Both the position numbers and the translations under genes were made by a program. DNA of 41,631 bases, taken from the NCBI GenBank assembly GCA_012959995.1, contig DUCC01000005.1:1-41631 (forward strand), in the 5' to 3' direction. The notes beneath the pieces are model-generated. The model saw only the letters and a program-made list of their open reading frames with translations. It made no database searches and had not been told where the DNA came from. This DNA is from Acidimicrobiia bacterium. GTDB lineage: Bacteria > Actinomycetota > Acidimicrobiia > Acidimicrobiales > MedAcidi-G1. How positions within the stretch are numbered: the stretch's first letter is position 1; the number at the start of each line of letters is the position of its first letter. Below are positions 1 through 8,362 of the stretch, in pieces.

Positions 1-96
1 GCTTCCGTAGGGGGTGCCCATGCCACGGGCCTCGTTGAAGTACCAGTAATCCCAGAAGTAGCCACCACGATAGTCAATGTGGTGGCCGACACGGCT
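1..96. repeat. 96-bp exact direct repeat of 4031-4126
   Basis: Bases 1-96 match 4031-4126 without a mismatch and in the same reading frame. Identity stops abruptly at 97, where the sequence switches to the peptidoglycan-binding repeat. The repeat starts at the window edge, so its true left end is unknown. It may reflect recent duplication or gene conversion between two anti-sigma-like genes; an assembly break at a repeat is the other explanation. Confidence 0.9.
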
Positions 97-1113
97 TCCT
101 TAGAACGTATTCTTCTCGTCGAATACGTATGGGGCCCATCCGAAGAAGCTGTAGCCCTGCAACAAGCGTTAAACCTTACCGATGACGGTTGGTACGGAAA
201 CGACACGAAAACTGCCCACTTACAGGCTTTACAGGTACGCGACCTTTCATCCGCCGGGGTACCACAAGAGCCGATCACTCCCCCACCTAATACAACGTCA
301 GCTCCCACACCAGCTGAGGAGGCTACGGTCACAGATCCTGAAGCCGGCACATCCGTAAACGTATTAACCGGCGTATATCAGTGGGGATCCAACCTTGACC
401 CTTCGATACAGCAACAAACCAGTGACCTTCAATCAGTTTTAGGGCTTACCTCTGATGGTGTTTACGGCAGGGGAACCAGGGAAGCACATGTATCTGCGTT
501 ACGGGTAAACAGTCTCTCAGAAAGTGGCGTACCTGACGTACCCACGACTACCACACCAGCGGAAAACTGCGCAGGGATGTACTGCTGGCCTGGATACTCC
601 GGTATTAACCAGACTGCGGTAGATGCTGTTTTCGCTACCCTACATGCCGAACTTCAACCAGGGCTTAACGGCGTGACTATCGTCAATGGGTGTACCCCGT
701 ACGCCGCCGTCGTATGGGACATCACTCCTTGCCTGATTAACGTTTTCGACAAAAATGCCTGGGGAGCCGATGGTAAACCCAGTCACGAATGGCTGAACTC
801 CATTTGGATAAACGACTACGTAGCCGAACGCCCTGCCGTGTTGCTCAAAGTCGCTATCCACGAAGCAGCTCACGCTACCGATGTTACGGTGTGGGCTAGT
901 TGCAGCAGAGACGACGGAACCTCTTGGGGCGACTATCTCCACTCTCTGGCCTTAGCGGTACCAGGGTTACGCGATGGCTTATCTGGTCGAGAGGCCCTTG
1001 CTGATTTCGTAACTCGCTACTTTGGTCACACAAGCAAATCAAGTTACATAGGTGACACGCAACTGCCCGACGCCTTTCGATCTGACATACAAACCGCGTT
1101 TGCGTCTTGTTAA
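1..1113 (+). CDS. 5'-truncated membrane-anchored (anti-sigma-like N-terminus) peptidoglycan-binding / zinc-metallopeptidase-like protein
   Basis: The frame is open from base 1, so the true start lies left of the window; a GTG at 79 is only an internal candidate. Codons 1-32 are identical to residues 89-120 of the anti-sigma protein at 3767-5338, the end of its membrane segment and the residues just outside. Then come two peptidoglycan-binding-like repeats (about codons 33-91 and 118-181, each with a WG, a spaced LQ, and a DG-x-YG-x-x-T signature) joined by a Pro/Thr linker. The C-terminal domain (about 188-370) has HEAAH at 287-291 and EALAD with Glu331, the layout of a gluzincin-type zinc peptidase, plus several Cys shared with the paralogue at 1251. 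I infer an extracytoplasmic wall-associated domain on an anti-sigma-like anchor. Peptidase activity is unproven; the fold family is not one I can name. Confidence 0.75.
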   Translation, partial: ASVGGAHATGLVEVPVIPEVATTIVNVVADTASLERILLVEYVWGPSEEAVALQQALNLTDDGWYGNDTKTAHLQALQVRDLSSAGVPQEPITPPPNTTSAPTPAEEATVTDPEAGTSVNVLTGVYQWGSNLDPSIQQQTSDLQSVLGLTSDGVYGRGTREAHVSALRVNSLSESGVPDVPTTTTPAENCAGMYCWPGYSGINQTAVDAVFATLHAELQPGLNGVTIVNGCTPYAAVVWDITPCLINVFDKNAWGADGKPSHEWLNSIWINDYVAERPAVLLKVAIHEAAHATDVTVWASCSRDDGTSWGDYLHSLALAVPGLRDGLSGREALADFVTRYFGHTSKSSYIGDTQLPDAFRSDIQTAFASC

Positions 1114-1143
1114 TGGTTACGCAAAGCCGTCTTGCTTCCACGG
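1088..1143 (+). repeat. Gene-tail direct repeat, copy 1 (copy 2 at 2366-2421)
   Basis: This stretch contains the last codons of the first metallopeptidase-like gene, its TAA stop and about 30 bases of 3' flank. It recurs at 2366-2421 with few mismatches, 33 bases after the stop of the second paralogue, where it still spells an in-frame QTAFTSC and stop. The second copy is not part of any intact gene. Confidence 0.8.
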
Positions 1144-1250
1144 ATTTGACGTAGGCCGTAGTCACCTGATGTCCCAAAACAGGGCGTACGCATGTACCGA
1201 ATGCCACACATTTGTGTGTGACGCTCCCGCAGAGCCGAACAGTTCTTTTT

Positions 1251-2333
1251 ATGCTTATCAAACTTGTTAAAAGAATCTCTTTCTTCTCCCTCACCGCTGT
1301 TGCCATTACCTCTTTGCTCTTGTCGGCCGACGTATCCGCAAATCTGGCCCCGCAAACCGCTGCAGGTACTGCTACAGAACTTTCAGACCAGCGGGTTACA
1401 CCTACTACAACGTCGACCCCACCACCTACTACAACGTCGACCCCACCGCCTACTACAACGTCGACCCCACCACCTACTACAACGTCGACCCCACCGCCTA
1501 CTACAACTATTGACTCGAATTCCTTAGAACGCATTCTTCTCGTCGAATACCTGTGGGGCTCCGCCACCGACGTGGAAACGAGGGAACTTCAAGGCGTCCT
1601 CAATATCTCCATAGATGGCATTTACGGAAACCAAACCCGCACAGCACACGTAGATAGACTAATCGCAATGGGGCTTGTTCTAGACGGTGTCCCTGCTGTC
1701 CCTGTAGCGGCCCCGAAAAACGCCTGCGACGTGACCATTTCCTACTCCTGCTATCCAGGGTACTCAGGTAACCACCAAGCAGAACTAGTAGAGTACTTCG
1801 AAACCCAACTCCCACAATACCTGATTGACACGACCAGAGGGCTGCAAATCATCAACGGCTGTACACCGTCTGCGGCGTACATCGGCCGGCCAGTAGACCC
1901 GTGTACGGTCAACGTGTTCGATATGCCCGGCTGGGGTGCTGATGGGTCTACAGGAAACGCTTGGGCGTACTCGATCTGGATATCCGATGCCACGTTCAGC
2001 TCTACACGGAAATTAGAATACGTAGCCCTTCATGAAGCTAGCCACGCTGCTGCGATACTGGTTTGGAGACACTGTTACACCCCTGAGGGAGTTTCATACA
2101 GGTACTGGTTGGAAGACCTTGCAGCCGCTGTCCCTGGCATTGACTCTGACATACACCACCAAGAGCTTCTCGCTGACTTTATGGTGTCGTTTTGGGCCCC
2201 GGGGGCTTCTTGGCGTGGCTCATACACAGGTAGCGTGCTTCCGTCTGCTGAGCTACTCGCCGGCATACAAGAGGCCGTAGATTCCTGTGACCCTAATACT
2301 GTTTACAAAGGCCCAGGCCCTGCAGCCTTCTAG
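1251..2333 (+). CDS. Secreted peptidoglycan-binding / zinc-metallopeptidase-like protein, paralogue 2
   Basis: The 360-residue product has a signal peptide (about residues 1-31, ending SADVSA), a Pro/Thr stalk of PPPTTTST octads (about 50-83), one peptidoglycan-binding-like repeat (91-150) and a C-terminal domain with HEASH at 261-265 and Glu305 in ELLAD. The His-to-Glu spacing of 44 residues is identical to that of the upstream paralogue, as are several Cys positions, which argues for a real conserved active-site layout and disulfides. The ATG at 1251 is chosen because it begins the signal peptide; a TTG at 1212 would put 13 polar residues in front. No clear Shine-Dalgarno is visible. Unlike the first copy it is freely secreted and has one wall-binding repeat instead of two. 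Substrate unknown; a wall-peptide or protein hydrolase is an inference. Confidence 0.8.
   Translation: MLIKLVKRISFFSLTAVAITSLLLSADVSANLAPQTAAGTATELSDQRVTPTTTSTPPPTTTSTPPPTTTSTPPPTTTSTPPPTTTIDSNSLERILLVEYLWGSATDVETRELQGVLNISIDGIYGNQTRTAHVDRLIAMGLVLDGVPAVPVAAPKNACDVTISYSCYPGYSGNHQAELVEYFETQLPQYLIDTTRGLQIINGCTPSAAYIGRPVDPCTVNVFDMPGWGADGSTGNAWAYSIWISDATFSSTRKLEYVALHEASHAAAILVWRHCYTPEGVSYRYWLEDLAAAVPGIDSDIHHQELLADFMVSFWAPGASWRGSYTGSVLPSAELLAGIQEAVDSCDPNTVYKGPGPAAF
1401..1507 (+). repeat. 24-bp in-frame tandem repeat encoding a PPPTTTST stalk
   Basis: Four 24-base units (1401-1496) differ only in a final A/G that alternates regularly, followed by an 11-base partial unit. The alternation suggests duplication of a 48-base block. 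The units encode the flexible Pro/Thr linker between signal peptide and wall-binding repeat, and copy number probably varies between strains. Confidence 0.95.
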
Positions 2334-2365
2334 CGCCGCTTCCCAACAAAACAAGCAAAGTGCAG

Positions 2366-2421
2366 TACAAACCGCTTTTACGTCTTGTTAATGGTTGCGC
2401 ACAGCCGTCTTGCTCCCACGG
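2366..2421 (+). pseudogene. Relic of the 3' end of a third metallopeptidase-like gene
   Basis: Copy 2 of the repeat at 1088-1143. It still encodes the terminal QTAFxSC residues and stop of the first paralogue plus matching 3' flank, but the gene body before it is absent. The simplest reading is that a third tandem copy existed or that the intact second gene was inserted or converted just ahead of an older gene end. Confidence 0.6.
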
Positions 2422-2425
2422 TTAG

Positions 2426-2451
2426 GTAGGTAAGGCGAACGCCTTACCTAC
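2426..2451. promoter_or_regulatory. Perfect 11-bp inverted repeat with GAAC loop ahead of a small ORF
   Basis: GTAGGTAAGGC, GAAC, GCCTTACCTAC form a perfect stem-loop that ends 6 bases before the AAAGGAG ribosome-binding site at 2458-2464. No T-run follows, so it is a poor intrinsic terminator; an operator or 5'-UTR structure is more likely. The half-site loosely resembles TTAGGT elements of DtxR-type iron boxes, but the 4-base centre does not fit a 19-bp IdeR box. Confidence 0.5.
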
Positions 2452-2471
2452 ACAAACAAAGGAGATTTGAG

Positions 2472-2819
2472 ATGGATTTCTCAAACAGGAACCTTATAGC
2501 TTCCGCTCTGCGGGCACTACAAGAGGACGAACATCAAACTGAGTTTGCTTCGTTCCTTTGGAAACGGGCTCTCAGCTCTGAGTACTTCACGAGCATACCT
2601 CACGGTGTGACTGTGTTACCAAGCCACTCTGTCATGACTTCTATTATTAAGTCAGGCCGAGCGGAACTAGCTAGTAGTTTGGTCACCTTTTTAGGTGAGC
2701 AACACGAAAGTCTGCTTCTGCAGGCTGCTACCAACTCCCGCAAGGCTCGTACCGAGAGAAGCTTCTACATCATCAGACAGACCGTCATTATCTGTATCGC
2801 CAGCTACGGGAGTTGGTGA
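2472..2819 (+). CDS. Small chimeric hypothetical protein
   Basis: A strong AAAGGAG at 2458-2464 precedes the ATG by 7 bases, so initiation here is credible. I do not recognise the 115-residue product. About the first 85 residues look like a normal helical soluble protein (alternating Leu/Ala with charged residues). From about base 2740 the frame runs antisense to the thrombospondin-type-3 fragment, so the last roughly 27 residues are probably junk created by a rearrangement. The original C-terminus was therefore probably lost. It sits between the metallopeptidase-like genes and the sigma-factor relic. Confidence 0.5.
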   Translation: MDFSNRNLIASALRALQEDEHQTEFASFLWKRALSSEYFTSIPHGVTVLPSHSVMTSIIKSGRAELASSLVTFLGEQHESLLLQAATNSRKARTERSFYIIRQTVIICIASYGSW

Positions 2820-2951
2820 GTTGGCATCAAGAGGGTCGGTACCGAGAGCTGCCACCTCGTCGTAGTCGCTAAAACCGTCGCCGTCAGTGTCCGGGTTTCC
2901 TGGATCTGTGCCAAGAGACGCTTCTACGGCGTCGGAGTTGAATCTCAGAAA
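2691..2951 (-). pseudogene. Fragment of a thrombospondin type 3 repeat (calcium-binding) protein
   Basis: Read on the minus strand between a TGA at 2954-2952 and a TAA at 2693-2691, the frame has no start codon but encodes clear TSP3 units at 2939-2748: DTDGDGFSDYDE, ALGTDPLDANSPTP, then DTDNDGLSDDVEASLGT. The DxDxDG pattern is the Ca2+-binding loop of TSP3 repeats found in bacterial surface proteins. Homology stops at about 2748 on one side and 2940 on the other. This is an orphan piece, about 64 codons, of a larger secreted protein gene, left in inverted orientation. Confidence 0.7.
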
Positions 2952-2955
2952 TCAC

Positions 2956-3067
2956 CCTTTGAACATCTGCACCAATTCTCACCGAGGAGCAGCGTGAGGT
3001 GATTCTTCTTCGCATCGTAGGCCACCTCACTATGCCCGAAATAGCGCAAACTATAAACAAACCATTA
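2956..3067 (+). pseudogene. Decayed internal fragment of an ECF sigma-factor gene
   Basis: Bases 2956-2979 correspond to 3358-3381 and 2974-3067 to 3572-3665 of the intact sigma gene, with two visible substitutions. The two blocks join at AATTCT, a hexamer present at both ends of the missing 196 bases in the intact copy, so a deletion between short direct repeats explains the join. The deletion breaks the frame and both gene ends are gone. Bases 3068-3197 after it hold nothing I can identify apart from the presumed leader of the intact sigma gene. Confidence 0.85.
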
Positions 3068-3227
3068 ATGGCGGCCCCGTTTCCCGTAAAAAATCTGTTC
3101 TGCGGGGGCGGTCGCTTTTGGCTGATCTTCACCAAGCCCCGCCATGGACTACGCTCACCACCTATGGTTACCGCTACTTTTCTTTTGAGAAAATAACATA
3201 AGCATCTCCCAAAAAGAAGCCCTGCAC

Positions 3228-3767
3228 TTGGCCCGTCAAGGTGACCAGCGCGGCTACACTGCTCTCTTCGCTGAACTCTCGGGCCCCATCACTCGTTTCG
3301 CCCACTCTCGTTCTGCAGAAGACCCTGAGGGGCTAACCAACGAAGTATTCATTGCCGCCTTTGAACATCTGCACCAATTCTTAGGAGAAATTGATGACTT
3401 TCGCGGTTGGGTGTTTACCATCGCTCGCAATAAGACTATTGACGATGCACGACGCCGCAACCGGAGGCTAGACACGGTGGCTGAAACAGTTGAAAGAGTA
3501 GACCCCTCCTTAAGCGCCGAAGAAGATGTTATGGCCCGATTGGAGACCGAATGGGTTGAGGAGACCTTACAAATTCTCACCGAGGAGCAGCGTGAGGTGA
3601 TTCTTCTTCGTATCGTAGGCAACCTCACTATGCCCGAAATAGCGCAAACTATAAACAAACCATTAGGTGCAGTGAAAGCACTACAACGAAGGGGACTAAG
3701 GCGACTTGAAAAAGAAATTGAGTCAGAGCCGTACCCTTCTAGCCGTCGACGTCGTTGGAGGAAGTGA
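3228..3767 (+). CDS. ECF-type RNA polymerase sigma factor
   Basis: The 179-residue product has sigma region 2 (about residues 8-80: YTALFAEL, the TNEVFIAAFEHL helix and the DDFRGWVFTIARN segment) and region 4 (about 112-165: LTEEQREVILLRIVG, then MPEIAQTINKPLGAVKALQRRGLRRL, a helix-turn-helix). Both regions and their spacing are typical of ECF sigma factors. No ATG fits the start. TTG at 3228 follows a weak AAGAAG; an in-frame ATA at 3198 would give ISISQKEALHLARQG, which looks like the natural N-terminus with ATG changed to ATA. Its stop TGA overlaps the ATG of the next gene by one base (TGATG), the usual coupling of a sigma factor with its antagonist. A truncated duplicate lies just upstream. 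Confidence 0.9.
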   Translation: MARQGDQRGYTALFAELSGPITRFAHSRSAEDPEGLTNEVFIAAFEHLHQFLGEIDDFRGWVFTIARNKTIDDARRRNRRLDTVAETVERVDPSLSAEEDVMARLETEWVEETLQILTEEQREVILLRIVGNLTMPEIAQTINKPLGAVKALQRRGLRRLEKEIESEPYPSSRRRRWRK

Positions 3768-5338
3768 TGAGCAAACCACTGAATGACGACGAGGTAGAGA
3801 AGATCCTCCAAGGTAAAGCAACGAGCCGACCGCTCGGAGCCATCTTGGAATCGATCCGTAACCACTTTGCGTCCATTGATCCGGCTGAGCCGAACGATGA
3901 CCTTCAGCGGTTTGTGTCTGTGGAACTCCTCCACGCATCCGACACAAAGGACAGAAAAATGCTACCAGCACTAATAAATTTTGCCGGCACGGTAGTCGGC
4001 AAAGTACTTCTCACCACCACGGTTGCCGCAGCTTCCGTAGGGGGTGCCCATGCCACGGGCCTCGTTGAAGTACCAGTAATCCCAGAAGTAGCCACCACGA
4101 TAGTCAATGTGGTGGCCGACACGGCTATTAGCGTAGTTGAAGTCATCGATGTAGTTATTCCAGGCAACATCATCGCCGATCCGGAACCAGTAGTTTCAGA
4201 GCCAGTAGTTACTGAACCAGTTACCCCTGAACCAGTGGTCCCCGCACCAGTTAACCCTGAACCAGTGGTCACCACCACCTCCACAACCACGGTGGCCCCT
4301 GCTCCACGGTTTGTTCTGGCTGCGCAGACCTTTGATGTTCTCGAGGTCGGCACGGTAACCGTGGAAGGTGACTCAGACGCTGGGCTAACCATCTTGGCCA
4401 CCACCTTCGCTTTTGGATGGGATGTAGAGGTTGAGCAAACCGATCTTCCCGGTGAAGTAAGCGTTAGCTTTCGTTCGGGTGATGACCGGGTTGATTTTGA
4501 TGCGCTCATCGTTGACGACCAACTACGGGTAAGTGTCCGGGACCGCCGCACTGACACCCGAGGCGATCAGTTCTTCGACGCCGACGGCAACCCAGTTGAC
4601 GGCAACCCAGTGGTTGACCCCACCCCGATACCAGCTTCGCAGACCTTTGATGTTCTCGAAGTCGGCACCGTGACCATTGGTCGAGGCGACGATGCGCAAC
4701 TTGCCGTCCTAGAAACGACCACCACGACGGGATGGGCGGTAAGTATCGACCAGGCTGAAGAACCTGGTGAAGTAAGCGTTACTTTCCGCAACAATGACGA
4801 CCGAGTTGATTTCAAAGCCTCCGTAGAAGATGGACAACTTCGCATTCGAGTGCGTGATCGTCGCATCGATACCCGAAGTGAAGATTTCTTTGATCTTCAA
4901 CCGGTAGGCACCCCCCGAGAGGTGACCATAGAGGTAGGTGGCAACGTTGATGACGACACCGATGTTGATGACGACACCGATGTTGATGACGACACCGAGG
5001 AACAAGACTTTGACACTGACGAAGTTAGTCCCCTGATTGTCTTACGCAGCATGGATGTGTTTGACGCAGGAAGCGTAACTTTTAGCACGGTGGTAAACGG
5101 AGACTCACTTTCCCGCATCGCCGTCACCTCAGCAGTCGGGGCCAACGGCTGGAGCGCAGAAATCTTGTCTGGCAATATGAAAGTGCGCTTTGAAAACGGT
5201 GATGACCGAATTGACTTTGAAGCTTTCTTCGAAGACGGTGAAGTAACCATCCATATCCGCCACCGGGGCAACGACCAAGAGTTGGATTACCGCATCCAAA
5301 TGGTCGACGGGCTTCTGCAAGTTGAAGCAATTTCTTAA
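3767..5338 (+). CDS. Putative transmembrane anti-sigma factor with three repeated extracytoplasmic domains
   Basis: GGAGG at 3757-3761 sets the ATG at 3767, overlapping the sigma stop. The 523-residue product has a cytoplasmic part (1-66), a hydrophobic segment (about 67-96), a Pro-Glu-Pro-Val stalk and Thr-rich spacer (about 130-180), then three copies of a domain of about 85 residues starting near 187, 292 and 429. Each copy has (Q/S)xxDVxxxGxVT, a GW, a V-F-R/E-N/S-G/N-DDRxDF core and RxRDRR or HIRHRG. An acidic DDDTDV repeat separates copies 2 and 3. Anti-sigma function is inferred from coupling and topology; I see no canonical zinc-binding HxxxCxxC motif. The repeated domain is unfamiliar and is predicted to be beta-rich and surface-exposed, plausibly the sensor. 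Confidence 0.7.
   Translation: MSKPLNDDEVEKILQGKATSRPLGAILESIRNHFASIDPAEPNDDLQRFVSVELLHASDTKDRKMLPALINFAGTVVGKVLLTTTVAAASVGGAHATGLVEVPVIPEVATTIVNVVADTAISVVEVIDVVIPGNIIADPEPVVSEPVVTEPVTPEPVVPAPVNPEPVVTTTSTTTVAPAPRFVLAAQTFDVLEVGTVTVEGDSDAGLTILATTFAFGWDVEVEQTDLPGEVSVSFRSGDDRVDFDALIVDDQLRVSVRDRRTDTRGDQFFDADGNPVDGNPVVDPTPIPASQTFDVLEVGTVTIGRGDDAQLAVLETTTTTGWAVSIDQAEEPGEVSVTFRNNDDRVDFKASVEDGQLRIRVRDRRIDTRSEDFFDLQPVGTPREVTIEVGGNVDDDTDVDDDTDVDDDTEEQDFDTDEVSPLIVLRSMDVFDAGSVTFSTVVNGDSLSRIAVTSAVGANGWSAEILSGNMKVRFENGDDRIDFEAFFEDGEVTIHIRHRGNDQELDYRIQMVDGLLQVEAIS
4031..4126 (+). repeat. Second copy of the 96-bp repeat at the window start
   Basis: This segment encodes residues 89-120 of the anti-sigma protein (end of the membrane segment and first external residues) and is base-for-base the same as 1-96. 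Confidence 0.9.
4946..4996 (+). repeat. 18-bp tandem repeat encoding acidic DDDTDV units
   Basis: Three consecutive units (4946-4963, 4964-4981, 4982-4996, the last short by the final codon) encode V-DDDTD-type residues between extracytoplasmic domains 2 and 3 of the anti-sigma protein. The Asp spacing could bind Ca2+, but it is equally consistent with a plain acidic spacer. Confidence 0.9.
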
Positions 5339-5361
5339 ATAAACCTACGCCCTTTTCTCTC

Positions 5362-5394
5362 CTGGCCGGTGGCGCACCAAGCGTCACCGGTCAG
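5362..5394. terminator. Candidate terminator after the sigma/anti-sigma operon
   Basis: A 14-bp stem (CTGGCCGGTGGCGC / GCGTCACCGGTCAG, two G-T pairs) with a 5-base loop starts 24 bases after the anti-sigma stop. No T-tract follows directly. It could serve the plus-strand operon or, in the other direction, the nitroreductase gene. Confidence 0.55.
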
Positions 5395-5521
5395 GCGCGT
5401 TTCTGCCTTAAATAAAAACCGAAAGCAGAAAACCCTCAACCCAAGGGGCCGGGGGCATCTGCATGATTGGGAATAACCATGTCCAGCGGTAGCTCCTCAG
5501 CCAGCCGCCAGTGCGCTGAGG

Positions 5522-6247
5522 CTAGCCGTCTTCCGCAGCGACCTCCACGAAAACTTCATTCAAACTTTTTCGCTTAATATCTGGCACCTTGACCCCTTCC
5601 AAGGGATAGCCCACCGGAAACAGCACAAACGGGCGTTCGTTTTCTGGTCGGCCTAACACCTGTCGCAAAAAAGCCATCGGTGAAGGGGTGTGGGTCAGGG
5701 TGGCTAATCCTATGTGATGCAGCGCCGTCACAAAAATACCGGCGGCAATTCCTGTGCTTTCCTTCACATAATAGTTTTTACCTTTCGAGCCGTCGACTCG
5801 CTGTTCGTAGCGCTGCTCAAAAAGAACCACTATCCAAGGGGCGATTTCTAAAAACTCTTTGTGATGATCGGTGCCCAAAGGCCCCAACGCTTCTTGCCAT
5901 TCTTCGTTCATGCGGTTCTCTAAATAATTTACCCGCTCTTCTTCTTCGGCGGCCGTCCGAATAGCCGCTTTGACCTCTGGGTCGCAAGTAGCCACAAAAG
6001 TCCACGGTTGTTTATGAGCCCCCGAAGGTGCCGTCGAAGCAGCCTTTACCGCTAACTCAATCAGTTCTCGAGGCACTGGTTGGTCGCTAAACATACGCAC
6101 GCTGCGTCGACCGTCTACTTCGGCATAAAACTCTTGTGCACGTTGCAGCATCTCCGCTTCACTAAAATATTGGGCTTCATAGACCACAAAAGAATGTTGG
6201 GCTTCAAGTTCAGGCGAAGGGTACGGGTGCTGATAATCAGCGGTCAT
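5522..6247 (-). CDS. Nitroreductase-fold FMN enzyme, iodotyrosine deiodinase-like
   Basis: The product (241 residues from the chosen start) follows the iodotyrosine deiodinase branch of the nitroreductase family nearly end to end: RRSVRMFSDQPVP, then TAPSGAHKQPWTFV (FMN phosphate and substrate region), EEEERVNYL, HHKEFLEIAPW, and a C-terminal LFPVGYPLEG and VPDIKRK. The Glu and Tyr of ERVNY and the Lys of HHKEF line up with the active-site lid Glu-Tyr-Lys of animal deiodinase, which is unusual for a generic nitroreductase. Reductive dehalogenation of halotyrosines is therefore a possible role, by family knowledge rather than proof. ATG at 6247 is preferred because AAGGAG sits 6 bases before it; ATGs at 6250 and 6262 are alternatives. 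It overlaps the end of the upstream acyltransferase gene, so the two are co-transcribed. Confidence 0.85.
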   Translation of the reverse strand: MTADYQHPYPSPELEAQHSFVVYEAQYFSEAEMLQRAQEFYAEVDGRRSVRMFSDQPVPRELIELAVKAASTAPSGAHKQPWTFVATCDPEVKAAIRTAAEEEERVNYLENRMNEEWQEALGPLGTDHHKEFLEIAPWIVVLFEQRYEQRVDGSKGKNYYVKESTGIAAGIFVTALHHIGLATLTHTPSPMAFLRQVLGRPENERPFVLFPVGYPLEGVKVPDIKRKSLNEVFVEVAAEDG

Positions 6248-6926
6248 CATCAACTCCTTCAATTTCGCTCACCGGGTTTTCTGCGTTGAACCGATGTTCT
6301 CGCTGCCAAGACTCACCATCGTGACGGCGCACCACCCGGCCCGGTACGCCTACTACCACCGAGTTGTCGGGGATAATCCCACCCACCACCGCATTGGCTC
6401 CCACCACCACATGGGCACCAATTTGCGCCCCCGGCAAAATCACTGCACCCGAACCAATCCAGCTCCCGGCGCCGATAACTACCAATTTTTCGCTGGGCAA
6501 TTGCGTGCCGATTGGTTCGTCAAGGTTTTCGTAGCCATGATTTTGATCAGTGATATAAACATTCATTCCAGTAAATACATCGTCGCCTATGTCTATAGAC
6601 CAATGACCGATGACGGAAGACCCTCGACCGATCAGACAGCGATCCCCAATGCGGACTACCGGGTTGGAAAGCATTTCTTGTCCTGGCCCCATGCCAGCCG
6701 ACAAGGTGACATGAGCACCGACCATGGTTTCTTCGCCAATCCAAATCCATTCTTCGCCAAACCCTGCTCCGGTAGGCCACCCGATAGCCGAGCCCTCACC
6801 AAACTGGCCAAAACGCTTCCCCTGGCGACTGTTTGGACCGATAATTGCTTGACGCTCCAACCAAGGCATCAACCGGCGATACCCCGCCCCCAGCCACATG
6901 CTGAGGGGTATCCGAAGCTTGGTCAT
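6237..6926 (-). CDS. Left-handed beta-helix (hexapeptide-repeat) acyltransferase
   Basis: The 229-residue protein is dominated by hexapeptide repeats of the [IV]-G-x-x-x-x type (VVRIGDRCLIGRGSSVIGH, IDIGDDVFTGMNVYI, VIGAGSWIGSGAVILPG, IGAHVVVGANAVVGG) ending in the usual IPDNSVVVGVPGRVVRR. The insertion with DQNHGYENLDEPIG carries the catalytic-type His of the xenobiotic/maltose acetyltransferase group (WbbJ-like). Those enzymes transfer acyl groups from acyl-CoA to sugars or similar hydroxyls in a trimer. The acceptor cannot be read here. It starts 34 bases from the divergent arfB start and overlaps the nitroreductase downstream. Confidence 0.85.
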   Translation of the reverse strand: MTKLRIPLSMWLGAGYRRLMPWLERQAIIGPNSRQGKRFGQFGEGSAIGWPTGAGFGEEWIWIGEETMVGAHVTLSAGMGPGQEMLSNPVVRIGDRCLIGRGSSVIGHWSIDIGDDVFTGMNVYITDQNHGYENLDEPIGTQLPSEKLVVIGAGSWIGSGAVILPGAQIGAHVVVGANAVVGGIIPDNSVVVGVPGRVVRRHDGESWQREHRFNAENPVSEIEGVDDDR

Positions 6927-7456: not shown

Positions 7457-8362
7457 ATGAAACGAAATAACAATAGTAAATGGGCTTTGCGACCCACCTT
7501 GCTGGCTTTGCTTAGCATTTTGCTTCTTCCAGTTGCTGCGGCGGCCTTAGAGGGGCAGACGGCACCAGATGCGCCGGTGATTGTCGAAGACGCCCCAGTC
7601 GACGACCTTCCCCCACTGCCCGACTGCGACCTGGACCACCCCTGTGGCGACCCCGGGGTTGAGCCCGGCGACCCCCAAGACCCCACCACCCCAATTGCTC
7701 CCGGCGAGCCCCAATACCCCGACCTCGGGCCACCCCCATGTGGTAACACCGGAGAACCCTGTACCGGCGATGATCTTCCTCCACTGCCCGACTGCCCCGA
7801 GGATCACCTTTGCGGCGACCCCAGCATTGAACCCGGTGACCCCCAAGACCCCGACCTCGGGCTGCCCCCGTGTGGCAACACCGGCCTGCCCTGCGGAGAC
7901 CCAAACATTCCCCCCTGCCCCGTTGATGACCAAGCCTGCATCCCCCTGCCTCCTTGCCCACAAGACATGGACTGCATGGTGCCCGGCGGCCCCGTCATGG
8001 GCCCACCCCCGTGTGGCAACACCGGCCTGCCCTGCGGAGACCCAAACATTCCCCCCTGCCCGCAAGGGGATGAAGCGTGTGTTCCCGGGATCATGCCGCC
8101 TAACTGCCCCGACGGTTTTGATTGCTCGGTACCCCCAATGGGGAACCAACCCTCATGCCCACCCGAAGCCACCATGGACACCAACGGTCTCACCTGCTCA
8201 TGGTCTGACCCGGGTGGCAACTTCTTTACCATTGACCACCAAACCGGGCAAGGAACCGCACTAAGGCCCAACGGGGCTACTGATGCTTTCAATGTCCATA
8301 GAGGGCTCTCCCCCTTCCCGGCGAACCACCAAGCACCGCAGATTCCCCCTATCGCTAAGTGA
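7457..8362 (+). CDS. Secreted Pro/Cys/Asp-rich repetitive protein
   Basis: A signal peptide (KRNNNSKWALRP, then a Leu-rich core ending near VAAAALEG) is followed by about 200 residues of irregular repeats built from PPCGNTG-PCGDPNIPPCP, LPPLPDC-x-xDH-CGDP and EPGDPQDPD, rich in Pro, Asp, Gly and paired Cys. The last 80 residues are different (SWSDPGGNFFTIDHQTGQG and a low-complexity tail). I recognise no family. Regular CxxxxxPC spacing suggests disulfide-stapled polyproline-like structure or metal binding; both are inferences. DNA in the repeat is markedly C-rich compared with neighbours because of Pro codons. It stands alone between arfB and the desaturase. Confidence 0.7.
   Translation: MKRNNNSKWALRPTLLALLSILLLPVAAAALEGQTAPDAPVIVEDAPVDDLPPLPDCDLDHPCGDPGVEPGDPQDPTTPIAPGEPQYPDLGPPPCGNTGEPCTGDDLPPLPDCPEDHLCGDPSIEPGDPQDPDLGLPPCGNTGLPCGDPNIPPCPVDDQACIPLPPCPQDMDCMVPGGPVMGPPPCGNTGLPCGDPNIPPCPQGDEACVPGIMPPNCPDGFDCSVPPMGNQPSCPPEATMDTNGLTCSWSDPGGNFFTIDHQTGQGTALRPNGATDAFNVHRGLSPFPANHQAPQIPPIAK
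7865..8061 (+). repeat. 56-bp exact repeat pair within the Pro/Cys-rich gene
   Basis: Bases 7865-7920 and 8006-8061 are identical (offset 141, in frame) and encode the PPCGNTGLPCGDPNIPPCP unit; a diverged third unit starts near 7733. Exact identity points to recent duplication or ongoing homogenisation. Confidence 0.9.

Follow-up and report, generated by a model that had tools for sequence, protein, structure and literature searches.

A possible fusion of an anti-sigma-like N-terminus to a wall-binding HExxH protein at a contig end in an Acidimicrobiia draft genome

A gene at the left end of an Acidimicrobiia contig joins the membrane segment of an anti-sigma-like protein to an outside part that carries peptidoglycan-binding-like (PGBD-like) repeats and an HExxH domain. 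The explanation we prefer, of which we are not quite half persuaded, is that partial duplication of a sigma/anti-sigma pair put the anti-sigma N-terminus before a wall-binding HExxH protein, and we propose that the fused product controls the intact sigma factor nearby. On present evidence the join is probably a real, one-off fusion that arose by partial duplication, and its signalling role is something we infer from sequence. The window considered here is the whole stretch of DNA analysed, namely contig G000:C5 at its full length of 41,631 bases, and its base 1 is an end of the assembly.

Positions 1-96 of the window (plus strand, flush with the contig end) match positions 4031-4126 in 96 of 96 bases and in the same frame. 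Codons 1-32 of the first open reading frame, ORF1, therefore correspond exactly to residues 89-120 of the product of the 523-codon gene at 3767-5338, and the first-pass annotation was right to equate them, in both DNA and frame, with the membrane-exit segment of an anti-sigma protein. A 53-base part of this repeat occurs twice in the window, against 0.00 expected from 100 shuffles. The ORF1 frame is open over 1-1113 (370 codons) and also on its left side; because base 1 is the contig end, the start of the gene is missing and the left edge of the repeat is unseen. As had also been noticed, the outside part of ORF1 is a different one: the ORF call, Pfam and family alignments place two PGBD-like repeats, Thr/Pro linkers and a C-terminal HEAAH...E domain of the HExxH type at 97-1113 on the plus strand (338 codons and a stop).

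The join between bases 96 and 97 can be read directly in the contig. It is in frame, as would happen one time in three by chance, it introduces no stop, and it falls at the codon where similarity to the next gene, ORF2, starts. ORF2 (1251-2333, plus strand) is a paralogue of ORF1 that has its own signal-peptide-like N-terminus, one PGBD-like repeat recognised by eye and a HEASH domain. The two proteins are 41% identical over residues 83-370 and 40% identical in the C-terminal domain, and likeness at the DNA level also begins at the join (88-135 versus 1512-1559, 88%). Furthermore, the 3' end of ORF1 (1088-1143) has 56 nt in common, at 91% identity, with sequence that follows the ORF2 stop (2366-2421), which we regard as a trace of duplication or recombination.

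What precedes the window can be approached through the other contigs of this draft genome (2.03 Mb in 37 contigs, 96.7% complete). Among 73 contig-end slices, the right end of contig C1 (8,847 bases) is the sole one that shares 20-mers with window positions 2301-5500, and it reproduces positions 3666-3742, the 3' end of the sigma gene, over 77 nt on the same strand with no mismatch. This 77-nt end and the 96-nt left end of the window mark the two edges of a 461-nt repeat, R, which lies at 3666-4126 on the plus strand and spans the sigma 3' end, the ribosome-binding site, and the anti-sigma cytoplasmic part and membrane segment. C1 enters R at its left edge and the window leaves R at its right edge, with matching order and strand, and from this we infer that a second copy of R lies between C1 and window base 97. 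One linear path that uses everything once would be C1, R, window 97-3665, R and window 4127 onward. The 288 nt between C1 and the window, ribosome-binding site included, would then equal 3743-4030 and are taken here from the window copy. Two limits on our explanation are that the join lies 96 nt from the contig end and that the middle of the second R copy is unseen. We also observe that segments [97-3067] and [3666-4126] would close into a circle.

Along the path from C1 through R into ORF1 the frame is open and takes in the anti-sigma ATG, which is preceded by a GGAGG ribosome-binding site. The predicted fusion has 458 residues, made up of the whole 120-residue anti-sigma N-terminus and the new outside part of 338 residues; 32 of the 120 lie in the window and are identical, and the other 88 are reached only via this path. 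The membrane segment is weakly hydrophobic, which speaks against our explanation: the highest 19-residue hydropathy of the predicted fusion, 1.62, occurs just past the Ala/Gly-rich segment. The first-pass annotation had supposed that the unseen N-terminus would also be anti-sigma-like, and along the predicted path C1, the sole contig end that meets the repeat, does imply this N-terminus in full. It had further proposed to look for a coupled sigma gene directly upstream, and there the expectation fails: before the predicted fusion stands only a 3' remnant of a sigma gene (codon 147 onward, starting GAVKALQRR), which is in frame with unrelated sequence. ORF1 is instead followed, 2.1 kb downstream, by the intact sigma gene, and with such a remnant before it the fusion would have lost its own promoter and coupling. 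An upstream signal peptide and a missing sigma gene had been named among the signs that would speak against the idea: no such peptide is readable, and the adjacent sigma gene is broken. We therefore consider the earlier interpretation, as a whole, partly supported.

The intact sigma gene occupies 3228-3767 on the plus strand and encodes an ECF sigma factor with sigma-70 regions 2 and 4 (Pfam Sigma70_r2 and Sigma70_r4 and NCBIfam sigma70-ECF, all above cut-off). The ordinary anti-sigma-like gene follows at 3767-5338 on the same strand, is assigned by its ORF and by a family with an upstream sigma gene, and consists of the 120-residue N-terminus, a Pro/Thr linker and two or three beta-type repeats. 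Homologues of this N-terminus occur in 12 of 298 genomes of the order and, by profile, in 23 of 395 genomes of the class, with the source genome counted in both. Linkage of the family to ECF sigma genes is directly visible: of 37 N-terminal ORFs, 31 follow closely on, or overlap with, an ECF sigma ORF of the same strand. The 37 ORFs come from 38 loci of other genomes (L152-L162, L164-L167, L203-L224 and L226), one of which has no N-terminal ORF; L158 and L204 are the same gene, the weak rows L222 and L223 were kept, and eight ORFs run off the sequence. No Pfam or NCBIfam model names the N-terminus as anti-sigma, so the term rests on gene order, the membrane segment and layout.

The membrane segment of this family is rich in Ala and Gly and is preceded by a conserved Thr-x-x-Gly-Lys (Thr in 26 of 34 rows, Gly in 29 of 33, Lys in 33 of 35). 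A candidate signal-peptidase site, the AxA-like AHA at residues 94-96 that ends the segment and would point to cleavage of the RsiP kind, was rejected: the pattern fits 21 of 32 rows there, whereas 25-29 of 32-34 rows fit at six neighbouring positions, and the Ala/Gly-rich composition explains this. In the ordinary anti-sigma ectodomain, a beta-type repeat (AGxVTV...GW...VxF...D) is found at 4319-4578 and 4634-4893 and recurs, by eye, in seven sigma-linked proteins (L155, L157, L159, L160, L161, L165 and L205). The window protein that carries it has no Pfam match above cut-off.

Turning to the new outside part, residues 132-162 of ORF1 match PG_binding_1 (PF01471) with E 4.2e-4 and 20.9 bits, below the curated cut-off of 23, and the first repeat, recognised by eye, is matched by no Pfam model. 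A relationship of the repeat to PG_binding_1 nonetheless seems likely from its sequence, and similar repeats are present in five named records (four Acidimicrobiaceae assemblies and one 'Actinobacteria bacterium'). The HEAAH motif lies at 859-873 on the plus strand, with a candidate third ligand in the Glu at 991-993 and an Asp at 1003-1005; the H, E, H, E and D of HExxH...ExxxD are invariant in all 21 aligned relatives, among 19 invariant columns in the 21 rows. In ORF1 the second Glu lies 43 residues past the Glu of HExxH and the Asp four further, an arrangement that we take to be the gluzincin pattern. These catalytic-type residues are thus conserved, and ORF1 retains every one of them together with two family-invariant cysteines.

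The HExxH profile finds relatives in 34 of 395 genomes of the class, of which 31 belong to one small-genome family, and in seven of eight genomes examined from the genus, the source genome included. In the small-genome family (about 1 Mb; L169-L196), one or two HExxH-family genes are common. Among the 21 aligned members of the HExxH family as a whole, no Pfam match is better than E 0.0042, the best of the SprT-like matches obtained for 10 of 21; one member each matches M36 (0.014) and ATLF (0.084). The best PDB profile matches are led by a Pro-Pro endopeptidase at E about 0.1, which is not significant. Pro-rich linkers occur in ORF1, ORF2 and a further paralogue on contig C7, and their presence beside this profile match is suggestive only. 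Models of the HExxH domain reached a mean pLDDT of 40.3 (alone) and 45.4 (with ORF2 as only second row), and with the latter as query Foldseek listed 23 matches up to E 10, none of them at E <= 0.001. Judged from these sequences, the family is a candidate for a conserved, uncharacterised secreted or anchored protease.

The fusion recurs neither among 31 complete HExxH-family ORFs nor among the 37 N-terminal ORFs, eight of which run off the sequence; the proposal in the first-pass annotation to seek homologues with the same N-terminus therefore turned up no second HExxH ectodomain. Likewise, none of 35 HExxH-family ORFs matches the anti-sigma profile. The 35 loci comprise 7 from the source genome and genus and 28 from L169-L196; four are cut at the start, and the two members of L062/L065, and likewise those of L170/L171, are almost or seemingly identical proteins.

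Under the explanation that we prefer, an ECF sigma/anti-sigma locus would have been partly duplicated, and recently so, with the cytoplasmic part, the membrane segment and probably the ribosome-binding site copied and placed before a secreted HExxH protease-like protein. The product would be a chimeric membrane protein of about 458 residues. Its N-terminus would bind the island's one intact sigma factor, which both anti-sigma copies would have in common, and the PGBD repeats would tether the outside part to peptidoglycan. The state of the wall or of a substrate might then bring about cleavage near the membrane, upon which the site-2 protease of the genome would act and the sigma factor would be freed. 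If true, two sensors with different outsides and one inside would report to one shared sigma factor. The genome does have one M50 site-2-protease gene over cut-off; all 14 control genomes have such a gene too, and so it says little for the model.

Alternatively, the fusion could be real and its anti-sigma part could simply have taken over as the membrane anchor or leader of a wall protease, with sigma regulation lost. We consider this somewhat unlikely. Each of the 31 complete HExxH-family ORFs already contains its own hydrophobic N-terminal segment (29 above 1.8 and two at 1.46 and 1.57 on a 17-residue scale), which suggests that the ectodomain needs export rather than signalling, and the sigma copy directly upstream is broken. 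Against a mere anchor stands the cytoplasmic part, which, as read or predicted, is unchanged relative to its neighbour, whereas a plain anchor would be free to decay; this argument is weak if the duplication was recent.

Given the position of the join, it is also appropriate to question whether the first 96 nt are a contig-end chimera and the true gene has a signal peptide of its own, as its relatives do. Of the 74 contig ends, 13 share between 33 and 98 terminal nt exactly with another place, and in four of these the overlap is 77 or 78 nt long. This count comes from a comparison of 600 nt per contig end with the other ends, the window and three further stretches, and it leaves out four further ends with a mutual 499-nt match that is alike on both strands (probably masked letters). 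We read such overlaps as branches of the assembly graph, and their frequency makes the 96-nt repeat most likely the tail of a longer repeat rather than a complete element. The location of the join among such ends and the absence of the fusion from all relatives examined would suit a chimera. However, we judge it distinctly unlikely, since the right end of C1 and the left end of the window converge on a single 461-nt stretch with order and strand in agreement, the reading frame is kept across the join, two of the six relatives compared have fitting neighbours, and the window itself contains fragments of a split sigma gene.

These pieces are found at 2956-3067 on the plus strand, where sequence comparison reveals a copy of 3358-3381 linked to one of 3569-3665 through a short word that the two have in common, as by an internal deletion. 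The piece that matches 3569-3665 is 97% identical and ends exactly at sigma position 3665, and the sigma copy on C1 begins at 3666, so that a second sigma copy seems once to have been present and to have been split there. Its three mismatches indicate that the piece is not a read-level copy. A sequencing chimera at base 96 would not readily account for such an independent trace.

Gene order in relatives gives partial support to the same path. We compared neighbours in six relatives (G001, G002, G005, G006, G009 and G022), and homologues of C1 and window genes adjoin in two of them, clearly in one. In G002:C6 the genes of the window and then those of C1 stand directly around a single nitroreductase-like gene; G005:C16 has the same order, although about 4 kb of other sequence intervenes. 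The remaining four, G001, G006, G009 and G022, speak against our explanation in that no C1 gene was found nearby beyond the nitroreductase-like gene, and the G006 contig ends there. In the window, the corresponding region at 5423-6342 on the minus strand, which we take to be nitroreductase-like, is 82% identical to a frameshifted copy at C1:7801-8711 (L133). If the path is right, these two copies would flank the island as direct repeats. In the family to which the window belongs, the sigma/anti-sigma pair was found in none of 22 other genomes examined (E 0.001 for the anti-sigma protein, 1e-20 for the sigma protein), and the island was probably either acquired here or lost elsewhere.

Finally, the fused gene could be real DNA that is unexpressed, one of several broken pieces of rearrangement debris in 1-3230, as the sigma fragments, a thrombospondin-type-3-like fragment, the frameshifted nitroreductase-like copy and the shared ORF1/ORF2 3' sequence nearby might suggest, and this we consider quite improbable because ORF1 stays open for 370 codons, keeps its motif residues and two cysteines, and because a ribosome-binding site is present in the window's copy of R.

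Several observations concern the surroundings of these genes. The thrombospondin-like fragment lies at 2740-2955 on the minus strand and carries DTDGDGFSDYDE / DTDNDGLSDD repeats that resemble, by eye, calcium-binding type 3 repeats; it forms no whole gene, and we found no second DNA copy in this genome. Farther along, 7457-8362 encodes a Pro-/Cys-rich protein with a signal-peptide-like start and internal CGNTGxPCGDPNIPPCP repeats. Rfam has no match in the window. In 1-5500, two promoter-like matches were found against 2.7 expected in shuffles, which is no excess, and 11 terminator-like sites against 4.8 expected. The island is not set apart by composition, with G+C of 0.51-0.57 in 1-5400 and 0.48-0.63 in the next 6.6 kb. 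A viral origin was considered and rejected: no relative of the HExxH domain was confirmed in viral contigs (26 pattern-matching stretches, domain only), and PHROGs yielded two matches of unknown function for ORF2 (E 1.4e-4 and 0.0038) but none for either ORF1 or the anti-sigma protein.

Our preferred explanation invites one further speculation, to which we give equally little credence as to an unexpressed remnant. Recombination between the R copies might be a natural ectodomain swap, in which the wall-tethered metalloprotease would serve as a sensor, or as a built-in site-1 protease for its Pro/Thr-rich neighbours, with both forms acting on one sigma factor. The two direct copies of R (461 nt) flank 3.57 kb, so that recombination would remove most of the intact sigma gene together with ORF2 and the ectodomain of ORF1, and would leave the beta-repeat ectodomain behind the same start. 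If the fusion is real, it would represent a sensor swap caught in the act, in which an identical switch module is joined to two different surface domains next to one sigma factor. It would also show a route by which anti-sigma factors gain enzyme-like outsides, such as those of RsgI proteins, and would offer a starting point for working out what a conserved HExxH family does in uncultured relatives of this class.

Each part of the fusion has counterparts elsewhere. Sigma-linked membrane proteins of this class have the homologous N-terminus and membrane segment, and their outsides consist, by eye, of beta-repeats, acidic or coiled-coil-like tails, or FN3-like domains. The PGBD/HExxH proteins of the genus and of the small-genome family, which are secreted or anchored, share the C-terminal domain but have a hydrophobic N-terminus of their own and no anti-sigma part; the PGBD-like repeats occur in the genus members. 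PPEP-1/Zmp1 and other HExxH peptidases align with HExxHA and the downstream Glu in profile matches that, at E about 0.1, are not significant. Among ECF systems, RsiV and RsiP of Bacillus are anti-sigma factors that become activated through a first cut at site 1 and a second one by a site-2 protease, and RsiV binds its signal, lysozyme, on the outside (PMC8844934). They differ from the fusion in that the excerpted text of that paper mentions no enzyme-like domain and assigns the site-1 cut to signal peptidase, for which we found no evidence in the present sequences.

The closest parallel in layout is RsgI, as had been proposed in the first-pass annotation. RsgI proteins, RsgI9 included, also combine a short cytoplasmic anti-sigma part, a membrane segment and an exchangeable outside that can be peptidase-like. 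According to the excerpted text of PMC12203970, RsgI9 of Clostridium thermocellum has protease-like S1C and NTF2-like domains, undergoes autocleavage in its outside part and is described as an orphan, no sigma partner being known for it. The analogy holds for layout and does not extend to the RsgI model itself, as a Pfam scan of the anti-sigma protein to E 1 returned no RsgI model, only DUF7383 (E 0.0036, below cut-off) and PPV_E2_C (E 0.094). The sigma partners (SigI versus ECF) and the outside domains (S1C and NTF2 versus PGBD and HExxH) differ as well (PMC12203970). In the titles and abstract openings found by searches of the open literature, the pairing of an anti-sigma part with PGBD/HExxH is unnamed. 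The layout of an anti-sigma factor with an enzyme-like ectodomain is already known from RsgI9, and the PGBD/HExxH pairing, if real, would be a variation on it.
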